Under the pieces are notes generated by a model that did no database searches, was not told where the DNA came from, and worked only from the letters and a program-made list of their open reading frames with translations. A DNA stretch of 64,000 nt from Desulfurobacterium indicum (GTDB lineage Bacteria > Aquificota > Aquificia > Desulfurobacteriales > Desulfurobacteriaceae), in the NCBI RefSeq assembly GCF_001968985.1, contig NZ_MOEN01000002.1:1-64000 (forward strand), read 5' to 3'. Each line of letters opens with the position of its first letter. The stretch's first letter is position 1. This document shows positions 49,345 through 52,322 of the stretch, one piece after another. A program made the position numbers and the translations under genes.

Positions 49345-49373
49345 TTGACACTTCTCGTTTATTGGTGTATCTT
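49345..49373 (+). promoter_or_regulatory. Strong promoter of the short ORF and secA, near-leaderless
   Basis: A perfect TTGACA (49345-49350), a 17-base spacer and TATCTT (49368-49373) form one of the best sigma-70 type promoters in the window. The expected start (about 49380) is only two to four bases before the ATG at 49383, so the mRNA would be leaderless or nearly so. Confidence 0.7.
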
Positions 49374-49382
49374 TAAACCACC

Positions 49383-49679
49383 ATGAAAAAGTTCAGAATT
49401 AATACCATTATAGTTGGATTTATATTTTTAACAGTTTTTACCTGCGGTGAAACACCAGCAGAAGTCCTTTCTTCTGTTAACTTTTCCGTTGAGCAGATAG
49501 AGGTTGTTAATAACAAAAGAGATTTGAAAATTAAATCAGAAAAAAGTGTCTTTTTACCTATTAAGCAACTTTTCAAAGATTATAAAGAAAATTATGGTTT
49601 TTCAGATGTTTACACTCAGTTTTCTTTCTGTTCTTTTGCGATAAAATCCTTGCCTCCCAGAGCTTCTCCGCTTTCTTAA
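49383..49679 (+). CDS. Candidate SecM-like secretion monitor (arrest peptide)
   Basis: This is a 98-residue protein ending 54 bases before secA. The N-terminus is signal-like: MKKFR, then a hydrophobic core (INTIIVGFIFLTVFT) and a possible cleavage or lipid site near Cys21. The middle is charged and unremarkable. Residues 80-96 read FSFCSFAIKSLPPRASP. They align without gaps to the SecM arrest segment of E. coli (residues 150-166, motif FxxxxWIxxxxGIRAGP): F80 at F150, F85 at W155, and R93, A94 and P96 at R163, A164 and P166. The RAPP/RAPG-type arrest peptides reported in other bacteria share the same R-A core. I, G and G positions of SecM differ. The ATG is the only possible start and has no Shine-Dalgarno. 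Stalling itself is a prediction. Confidence 0.65.
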   Translation: MKKFRINTIIVGFIFLTVFTCGETPAEVLSSVNFSVEQIEVVNNKRDLKIKSEKSVFLPIKQLFKDYKENYGFSDVYTQFSFCSFAIKSLPPRASPLS

Positions 49680-49728
49680 TCAGGGTTTTCAGTTTTTAAC
49701 TTAAATCTTAAATGAAAAATCAGGAGGT
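49652..49728 (+). promoter_or_regulatory. Possible hairpin hiding the secA ribosome-binding site
   Basis: GCCTCC (49652-49657, within the codons for Leu90, Pro91 and Pro92 of the short ORF) can pair with GGAGGT (49723-49728), the secA Shine-Dalgarno, giving five Watson-Crick pairs plus one G-U. A ribosome stalled at Ser95-Pro96 would cover the left arm and free the site, as in the E. coli secM-secA mRNA. The stem is short and its loop long, so structure probing is required to confirm it. Confidence 0.45.
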
Positions 49729-49733
49729 TTTAA

Positions 49734-52322
49734 ATGATAGATATTGTCCTTACTAAGCTTTTTGGTAGCAAGAACGAAAGAGTTGTTAAAAAAATGAGGC
49801 CTATTGTTGAAAAGATAAACGCATTGGAGCCGGAATTTGAGAAGAAAAGTAAAGAAGAACTTCAAGCTCTTACGGCAAAGTGGAGAGAAGAGCTTTCAAA
49901 AATAAAAGATGCGAAAGAGCAATTTAAGTATATGGATAAGATTTTACCTGAAGCTTTTGCAGCAGTTCGTGAGGCAGCAAAAAGAACTTTAGGTATGAGA
50001 CATTATGATGTTCAGCTTATAGGTGGTATGGTCCTTCATCAGGGGAAGGTTGCCGAAATGAAAACAGGTGAAGGGAAGACCCTTGTTGCTACGCTTCCTG
50101 TATATTTAAATGCACTTGCCGGAAGAGGCGTTCACGTTGTTACAGTTAACGATTACCTTGCCAAGAGAGATGCCGAATGGATGGGACCTGTTTATAACTA
50201 TCTCGGTATAACGGTTGGCTATCTCCAGAACAATATGGAGAAACCGGAAAGAAAAGAGATGTATATGAAAGATGTAACTTATGGAACGAACAGTGAGTTT
50301 GGATTTGATTATCTCCGTGATAACATGGCGTTTTCAAAAGATGAGAGAGTACAGAGGGATCTTTTTTATGCGATAGTTGACGAGGCAGATTCTATTCTTA
50401 TTGATGAGGCTAGGACGCCGCTTATTATTTCTGGACCTTCAGAAGAAAATGTCGATATCTATTACATAGCAGATTCTATTGTTAGACAGCTGAAAAAAGA
50501 AAAACATTTTACGGTTGATGAGAAAAACAAGACAGCTGTTTTAACCGATGAAGGAATCAGGGAAGTTGAAAAGATAGTTAGTAAAATGACGGATATAAAG
50601 GACTTTAACCTTTATGACCCTAAATTTGCCGATCTTCTTCACGGTATTATCCAGTCTTTGAGAGCTCATCATTTGTTCAAAAGAGATGTGGATTATGTTG
50701 TAAAAGATGGGAAGGTGATCATAGTTGATGAATTTACTGGAAGAATAATGCCGGGGAGACGCTGGAGCGATGGACTCCATCAGGCGGTAGAAGCGAAAGA
50801 GAAAGTAAAAATAGAAGCAGAAAACCAGACACTTGCGACTATAACCATTCAAAACTATTTCCGTCTATATAAAAAACTTGCCGGAATGACGGGAACTGCC
50901 GAAACGGAAGCGGCTGAACTTAAAGAAATCTATGGACTTGATGTTGTTGTTATTCCGACTAATAAGCCTGTTATAAGAAAAGATCATCCGGATGTTATTT
51001 ACAAGACAATGAAAGCCAAGTATGATGCTGTTGTTAAGGAAATTGAGAAGAACTATAAAGTGGGAAGACCTGTTCTTGTTGGGACCAACTCTATTGAGGC
51101 TTCTGAGTATCTTTCAATGCTATTAAAGAAAAAGGGTATTCCTCACAACGTTCTTAATGCCAAGTATCATGAAAGAGAAGCCGAAATCGTTGCTCAAGCG
51201 GGGCGGCTCGGAGCTGTTACGATAGCTACAAACATGGCTGGTCGTGGAACGGATATTCTGCTTGGTGGTAATCCGGAATACATGGCAAAACAGGAGCTTA
51301 AAAAGCGTGGAATAACGCCAGAGAAAGTCGGTGAAGAGAAATATGAAGAGCTGCTAAAAGAAGAGACGGAAAAATTCAGAAAAATAACGGAAGAAGAAAA
51401 GAAAAAGGTAATAGAACTTGGCGGACTTTATATTATTGGAACGGAGAGAAACGAAGCTCGCCGTATAGATAACCAGTTAAGAGGTCGTGCAGGAAGACAG
51501 GGAGACCCGGGAGAATCAAGATTTTTCCTTTCTCTTGAAGATGATCTTTTAAGGTTGTTTGGTTCTGACAGAATTAAGAAATTAATGGAAATGATGAATG
51601 TTCCCGATGATGAGCCTATAACTCACAAGATGGTTTCAAAGGCTCTTGAAAATGCCCAGAAACGTGTTGAAGATCAGAACTTCCAGATAAGAAAGAGGCT
51701 TTTAGAGTATGACGAAGTTTACAACGTTCAGAGGAAGGTAATCTATGAGCAGAGAAACAAGCTCCTTGACGGAGAAGATTTCAAAGAGGATATTCTCTAT
51801 ATGATTGAAGAAGTTGTCTGGAAGCTTATAGATCTTTATGCTCCTGAAAATATTGTTCCTGACGAGTGGGATTTTGAAGGTTTGAAAAAGGCGCTGGAAT
51901 TACGTTTCGGCCTTGAATTTGTTATTCCGTCATCATTTAAAGAGCTTATGGAAATGAAGGTTGAGGGGGCGGTTGACGAGAGAGATAAGCTGTTCCATCT
52001 GATCTATGACAGGCTCGTTAAAGAGTATGAGGAAAAAGAGAAACTTATAGGTAGCCAGCAACTCAGAGAAATAGAAAGGCTAATAATGCTTCAAACGCTT
52101 GATCATTACTGGAGACAACACCTGAGGGCTCTTGATCACATCAAGGAGAGTATCGGATGGAGAGGATATGCTCAGAAAGATCCGATTGTTGAATTCAAGA
52201 AAGAGGCGTTTATCCTGTTTGAGGAGCTTATTTCTAACATAGAGGATGCTACGGTTGACGGTATATTTAACTACTTCAAATATGTGGAAAGCCAAATGGA
52301 GCAAAATGAAAATAAGGCCTGA
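49734..52322 (+). CDS. secA: Protein translocase ATPase SecA
   Basis: This is the motor that drives secreted proteins through SecYEG. It has 862 residues. Motifs seen: MRHYDVQLIGGMVLHQGKVA, Walker A MKTGEGKT, VDEADSILIDEARTPL (DEAD), VKDGKVIIVDEFTGRIMPGR, TNMAGRGTDI, and RGRAGRQGDPGESRFFLSLE of nucleotide-binding fold 2. The scaffold and wing domains and a two-helix finger (around residue 780) follow. It ends at YFKYVESQMEQNENKA and lacks the C-terminal Cys-rich zinc tail that binds SecB in many bacteria. It has a strong AGGAGG at 49722. Confidence 0.96.
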   Translation: MIDIVLTKLFGSKNERVVKKMRPIVEKINALEPEFEKKSKEELQALTAKWREELSKIKDAKEQFKYMDKILPEAFAAVREAAKRTLGMRHYDVQLIGGMVLHQGKVAEMKTGEGKTLVATLPVYLNALAGRGVHVVTVNDYLAKRDAEWMGPVYNYLGITVGYLQNNMEKPERKEMYMKDVTYGTNSEFGFDYLRDNMAFSKDERVQRDLFYAIVDEADSILIDEARTPLIISGPSEENVDIYYIADSIVRQLKKEKHFTVDEKNKTAVLTDEGIREVEKIVSKMTDIKDFNLYDPKFADLLHGIIQSLRAHHLFKRDVDYVVKDGKVIIVDEFTGRIMPGRRWSDGLHQAVEAKEKVKIEAENQTLATITIQNYFRLYKKLAGMTGTAETEAAELKEIYGLDVVVIPTNKPVIRKDHPDVIYKTMKAKYDAVVKEIEKNYKVGRPVLVGTNSIEASEYLSMLLKKKGIPHNVLNAKYHEREAEIVAQAGRLGAVTIATNMAGRGTDILLGGNPEYMAKQELKKRGITPEKVGEEKYEELLKEETEKFRKITEEEKKKVIELGGLYIIGTERNEARRIDNQLRGRAGRQGDPGESRFFLSLEDDLLRLFGSDRIKKLMEMMNVPDDEPITHKMVSKALENAQKRVEDQNFQIRKRLLEYDEVYNVQRKVIYEQRNKLLDGEDFKEDILYMIEEVVWKLIDLYAPENIVPDEWDFEGLKKALELRFGLEFVIPSSFKELMEMKVEGAVDERDKLFHLIYDRLVKEYEEKEKLIGSQQLREIERLIMLQTLDHYWRQHLRALDHIKESIGWRGYAQKDPIVEFKKEAFILFEELISNIEDATVDGIFNYFKYVESQMEQNENKA

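Follow-up and report, generated by a model that had tools for sequence, protein, structure and literature searches.

Most of the Desulfurobacteriales analysed carry a short upstream open reading frame (uORF) in front of secA, and the question raised by the locus of Desulfurobacterium indicum is whether the RNA of that uORF also controls access to the secA Shine-Dalgarno (SD) sequence. The stretch analysed, referred to here as the window, comprises 64,000 nucleotides (contig NZ_MOEN01000002.1, positions 1 to 64,000, of assembly GCF_001968985.1). A first-pass annotation of the window proposed that GCCTCC inside two proline codons of the uORF pairs with GGAGGT of the secA SD, and that a ribosome stalled three to five codons further on would cover this arm, so that stalling is coupled to SecA synthesis by the codons of the motif itself. 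Below, the proposal is considered for the window and then for the family to which it belongs.

An arrest-peptide uORF in front of secA

The features of the locus are collected in Table 1. The uORF stop codon lies 54 nt before the secA ATG. The uORF product matches zero Pfam families at E ≤ 1. Its N-terminus, MKKFRINTIIVGFIFLTVFTCGE, is basic and hydrophobic and, judged by eye, signal-like, and similar N-termini recur in the homologues. In nearly all homologous uORFs the hydrophobic stretch is followed by a cysteine (e.g. LTVFTCGE), which by the standard lipobox rule does not stand in a standard lipobox.

Table 1. Coordinates of the uORF, the secA leader and their predicted elements in the window.
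Feature	Position	Strand	Basis or remark
Promoter-like TTGACA-17-TATCTT	49345..49373	+	Pattern scan, 10/12 matches; -10 ends 9 nt 5' of uORF ATG
uORF, 98 aa	49383..49679	+	ORF translation; C-terminal SLPPRASPLS
Putative arrest motif codons R93-A94-S95-P96	49659..49670	+	Placed by analogy with RQH-family toeprints (PMC10987492)
Expected P site (Ser95 codon); expected A site (Pro96 codon)	49665..49667; 49668..49670	+	By analogy
Expected stalled-ribosome footprint, -15 to +16 of P-site codon	49650..49681	+	Inferred from footprint size
Arm proposed in first-pass annotation: last base of Leu90 plus Pro91-Pro92 codons	49652..49657	+	Pairs with 49723-49728 in predicted fold
Second, competing arm UCUCC, Ser95-Pro96 codons	49665..49669	+	Per-codon pairing profile, 65 °C
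secA SD AGGAGGT	49722..49728	+	5 nt before ATG
secA, 862 aa	49734..52322	+	ATG at 49734; Pfam SecA_DEAD, P-loop_SecA, SecA_SW, SecA_PP_bind

RQH arrest peptides of the secA-associated kind are recognised by a C-terminal (R/Q/H)(A/G/D)(P/G/S)(P/G) motif, by more than 30 spacer residues separating the arrest site from an N-terminal secretion signal, and by their encoding in a short uORF without known function directly upstream of secA. The window uORF ends in RASP, has a spacer of about 70 residues and occupies just this position. Among these peptides, Fujiwara et al. (2024; PMC10987492) define a group named uA_RQH_Desulfurobacteriales, which shares with the window the order, a secA uORF, a RAPP-like C-terminal motif, a hydrophobic N-terminus and a long spacer. 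The window uORF belongs to this group, and the protein half of the switch is therefore already known. According to the passages of that paper on the group, one member was an efficient staller of B. subtilis ribosomes in vitro (PURE) and a less efficient one of E. coli ribosomes; in living cells of both species its arrest indices were low. In the RQH-family toeprints of the same paper, the P site is occupied by the third residue of the motif, and RASP is one of its query motifs. Its passages on the group describe stalling but, unlike the present analysis, no RNA structure.

Pairing with the Shine-Dalgarno in the window

CCUCC at 49653-49657 forms five Watson-Crick pairs with GGAGG at 49723-49727, and G49652-U49728 adds a G-U pair. 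The complementarity was thus correctly read, with one amendment: the Pro91 and Pro92 codons are CCT (49653-49655) and CCC (49656-49658), and G49652 falls outside both, as the final base of the Leu90 codon. The GCCUCC/GGAGGU pairing is present in the predicted minimum-energy fold of the window RNA. Taken in its entirety, that fold does not outperform shuffled sequences (z +0.50), nor does that of E. coli secM clearly do so (z -0.53); whole-region folding was therefore dropped as evidence and position-specific measures were used. A mask of standard ribosome-footprint size was used, which reaches from -15 to +16 around the P-site codon. If Ser95 occupies the P site, as the analogy implies, the arm lies at -12 to -8 from that codon, where a stalled ribosome would be expected to cover it, as had been proposed.

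Several comparisons indicate how ordinary this arrangement is within a single genome. Of 40 gene starts with an SD in the window, two, among them secA, have CCTCC at a distance of 21-100 nt upstream. Within the stall footprint, the SD of secA pairs with a probability of 0.42 at 37 °C and 0.41 at 65 °C, the latter temperature standing for thermophilic growth. About 10% (37 °C) and 8% (65 °C) of 230 control gene starts, drawn from 18 genomes and treated with the same footprint mask, equal these values. Redrawing the codons synonymously gives p 0.42 for the duplex energy (2000 trials), which is not above chance, and p 0.54 (37 °C) and 0.69 (65 °C) for the SD pairing probability (150 trials each). 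At 65 °C, the SD is shared between Ser95-Pro96 (UCUCC) and Pro91-Pro92, with about 1.7 and 0.8 expected pairs, respectively. The predicted cost of opening it, free versus stalled, is 5.7 versus 6.1 kcal/mol at 37 °C and 2.2 versus 1.5 kcal/mol at 65 °C.

The pairing thus exists in the window but is not above chance in this genome, whereas across the family it is. Modelled in this way, the window gate is weak and divided between the Pro91-Pro92 and Ser95-Pro96 codons, and stalling is predicted to release almost none of the SD, contrary to the proposal that a stall frees it. At the exact coordinates first put forward, the locus is ordinary and the gate unproven.

Pairing beneath the stall site across the family

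A search of 24 Desulfurobacteriales genomes for secA yielded 21 loci, 20 of them with readable upstream sequence; three genomes without a secA match (G119, G122, G128) and one locus with only 27 nt upstream (L051) were left out. The arrest uORF that the first-pass annotation placed before secA is present at 18 of the 20 loci, ending in RASP in 16 and RAPP in two, and Pro-Pro precedes the motif in 14 of the 18. One of these uORFs, in G118 (L046), is cut by a contig end; it was counted for motif and pairing and excluded from the promoter count. No uORF lies upstream of secA in G121 and G114. In G114 (L050), the secA SD is strongly paired at the same offset all the same, mimicking an SD hairpin, and the partner strand is apparently the SD of a divergent gene.

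Beyond the family, a phylum-wide search for the uORF (E ≤ 1) produced matches in 63 of the 136 genomes. Outside the family the matches were weak and mostly lay within longer frames, and consequently the secA loci of Desulfurobacteriales were used instead. Six genomes searched with a Thermovibrio uORF gave no match, and pattern matching at 14 secA loci of other lineages revealed no RAPP-like uORF.

The SD of the 18 loci is paired inside the stall footprint with a median probability of 0.92 (37 °C) and 0.74 (65 °C), compared with 0.002 and 0.014 in the control starts (rank test, p 3e-8 and 2e-10; p values across the family are optimistic, as the tests take no account of relatedness among the genomes). 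The excess persists without Thermovibrio (13 loci; p 1e-5 at 37 °C and 1e-7 at 65 °C). A probability of at least 0.4 is found at 14 of the 18 loci at 37 °C and 15 at 65 °C, against 10.9% and 7.4% of controls; the same footprint measure gives 0.85 for E. coli secM, which served as a positive control. For a 32-nt segment moved along the RNA from -120 to +60 relative to the P-site codon, mean SD pairing is maximal at offset 0 (0.59-0.61), near 0 far upstream and about 0.1 downstream. The signal is not uniform: G131, G132, and G134 have little footprint pairing at 65 °C (0.00-0.20), G124 has none at 37 °C, and four homologues are below 0.4 when longer RNA is folded.

Codon choice lifts this pairing beyond what the peptide sequence dictates (Fisher p 6e-5 at 37 °C and 5e-4 at 65 °C; 0.003 and 0.008 when a single Thermovibrio is retained). 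At 65 °C, synonymous redraws already average 0.42, against 0.67 observed. Thus, the Pro/Ser-rich motif is the main source of the complementarity, to which codon choice contributes further. The cognate combination of arm and SD also beats combinations with swapped SDs (permutation p 0.0006).

A moving arm and covariation in Thermovibrio

A conserved Pro-Pro arm is ruled out, as the position of the arm shifts among homologues. In the 65 °C profile, it corresponds to the Pro-Pro before Arg in G123 and G133, to Ala-Ser of RASP in G127, to Ser-Pro and the next codon in five Thermovibrio (and partly in G125 and the window), and to Pro-Pro of RAPP in G124 and G126. In G129 it consists of codons after the motif, in G130 it lies before Pro-Pro, and in G135 it lies past the stop codon. 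The test set in advance for the original proposal was whether relatives lose the pairing while keeping the uORF. They largely do lose the specific Pro91-Pro92 arm, which is dominant in few of them; what persists is some SD arm within the footprint, in the 15 loci that reach at least 0.4 at 65 °C, and pairing centred on the footprint across the 18 homologues.

The clearest arm is that of Thermovibrio, the name used here for a genus group (g2) of five genomes and taken from one member. Together with the codon that follows, AG[A/G] GCT TC[A/C] CCT is complementary to GGAGG(T)GAAGC[T/C], and the resulting duplex, of about 12 pairs and about -20 to -24 kcal/mol, extends up to the start codon. Two of the 12 pairs change on both sides: one at the Arg wobble position (G-C/A-U) and one at the Ser wobble position (A-U/C-G). 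Standard pairs fill 96.7% of the 60 pair cells, against 35-60% when the strands are slid. The covariation score is reached by 16 of 500 shuffles, and the both-side changes amount to two in five sequences. G115 fits this helix through a one-base bulge. The helix makes the strongest case for one set of codons serving both the peptide and the RNA. Covariation in relatives, which had been suggested as a check, is found for the Thermovibrio motif arm; the exact Pro-Pro arm is not conserved. Likewise, the suggestion of joint selection on the codons gains from the compensatory wobble changes in Thermovibrio, while codon choice and pairing strength in the window carry no signal of selection.

Promoter and start of the uORF

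The promoter-like element of the window recurs in the family. TTGACA-17-TAnnnT, with 7-9 nt between its end and the start codon, precedes 11 of 17 uORFs with a readable start and 2 of 515 control ORFs. With a -10 element so close to the ATG, the uORF mRNA is probably leaderless or nearly so, and the arrest peptide would probably be read from such a message, starting without an SD of its own, whereas secA relies on one. Four Thermovibrio loci (L042, L045, L047, L049) have no such promoter; there, the uORF start overlaps the stop codon of the upstream gene, which suggests coupled translation instead. In G121 (L040) the uORF is absent, and a promoter-like TTGACT-17-TAGTTT is kept; all that comes after it is a tiny ATG frame. 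This genome may represent a natural loss of the arrest peptide.

A literature search found no paper linking a leaderless start with a secA arrest peptide. A search for arrest peptides of Desulfurobacteri* or Thermovibrio likewise found none, a weak negative, as PMC10987492 contains the former only inside compound names. The moving, motif-coded arm and the leaderless-type promoter are both new to us.

Comparison with known systems

The closest parallel is SecM-secA of E. coli, in which an arrest uORF also precedes secA and the secA leader finds its pairing partner in C-terminal uORF codons covered by the stalled ribosome. In E. coli K-12 the arm, CT-CAA-CGC-CTC (-17.5 kcal/mol), starts from the Pro166 codon of RAGP. 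Because it already uses the last codon of the arrest motif, the mechanism considered here is SecM-like, and its use of motif codons differs in degree rather than in principle; the contrast with E. coli drawn by the first-pass annotation was overstated. The differences are that the Desulfurobacteriales arm moves among codons, spans the whole motif in Thermovibrio and belongs to a uORF with a probable leaderless start. Descent from SecM is not supported: the arrest sequence FxxxxWIxxxxGIRAGP is absent from the window uORF, whose C-terminus reads FSFCSFAIKSLPPRASPLS, and the uORF has no likeness to it. A second parallel, from the relevant passages of PMC10987492, is uDF_RQH_Enterobacterales of Alteromonas naphthalenivorans. 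There, RAPP-like arrest opens a stem and exposes the SD of the next gene, as stem mutations show, but the gene controlled is secDF2 rather than secA, and the lineage is another one.

A probable SecM-like gate and its alternatives

We consider it fairly probable that Desulfurobacteriaceae have a SecM-like gate on secA, with an arm that moves under the stalled ribosome. When export is slow, the secreted arrest peptide would stall its ribosome with the third residue of RASP or RAPP in the P site. Without a stall, the secA SD would pair with pyrimidine-rich codons located under the site of stalling; with one, it would be exposed, and SecA synthesis would rise. The Pro, Ser, Ala, and Leu codons at or beside the motif are naturally complementary to GGAGG, and each lineage draws on another stretch: codons upstream of the motif, those of the motif (most evident in Thermovibrio), those downstream of it, or RNA just past the stop. 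We infer occlusion of the SD in cells, its relief by stalling and the resulting SecA feedback. Such a gate is well supported for the family and most striking in Thermovibrio.

The chief competitor, to which we give somewhat less than an even chance, is that the arrest peptide is real and the pairing a by-product: CCN and UCN codons resemble an anti-SD and would pair with any GGAGG, with no role in the window genome. The synonymous null of the window (p 0.42-0.69), the high mean of the family redraws at 65 °C and the lack of conservation of the exact arm all fit this explanation. It accounts less well for the significant pairing that codon choice and cognate SDs add across the family, or for a Thermovibrio helix that covaries and extends past the SD to the last bases before the start codon. 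Alternatively, arrest might act on secA by a route that needs no SD hairpin, such as protecting the mRNA, coupling transcription to translation, or translational coupling through ribosomes that complete the uORF. The related peptides ApcA, ApdA, and ApdP have no SD-hiding hairpin, according to the relevant part of Sakiyama et al. (2021; PMC7897499), and the SD release predicted in the window genome is weak; nevertheless, SD pairing is centred on the footprint in most homologues, and this route appears unlikely. Least probable of all is that the pairing merely sets a low basal or temperature-dependent level of secA, unconnected with arrest. The predicted cost of opening the SD does fall from 37 to 65 °C at all 18 loci, but the position of the pairing under the stall site is then left unexplained.

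A stronger version of the SecM-like gate is that a single stretch holds both halves of the switch: RAxP codons would be inherently anti-SD, a peptide evolving RASP or RAPP ahead of a sec gene would obtain the gate at no extra cost, and Thermovibrio would have refined both through synonymous positions. We regard this version as doubtful, if slightly less so than a route without a hairpin. If it is true, the anti-SD nature of RAxP codons would help to explain why RAPP-like motifs recur upstream of sec genes.

Implications

For the window genome alone, the result is modest. For the family, a published group of arrest peptides, whose downstream mechanism is not described in the passages of PMC10987492 on it, is now tied to a concrete candidate RNA gate on secA. 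This gate would operate in thermophiles distant from E. coli, and it offers a testable reason for the recurrence of proline-rich arrest motifs before sec genes.
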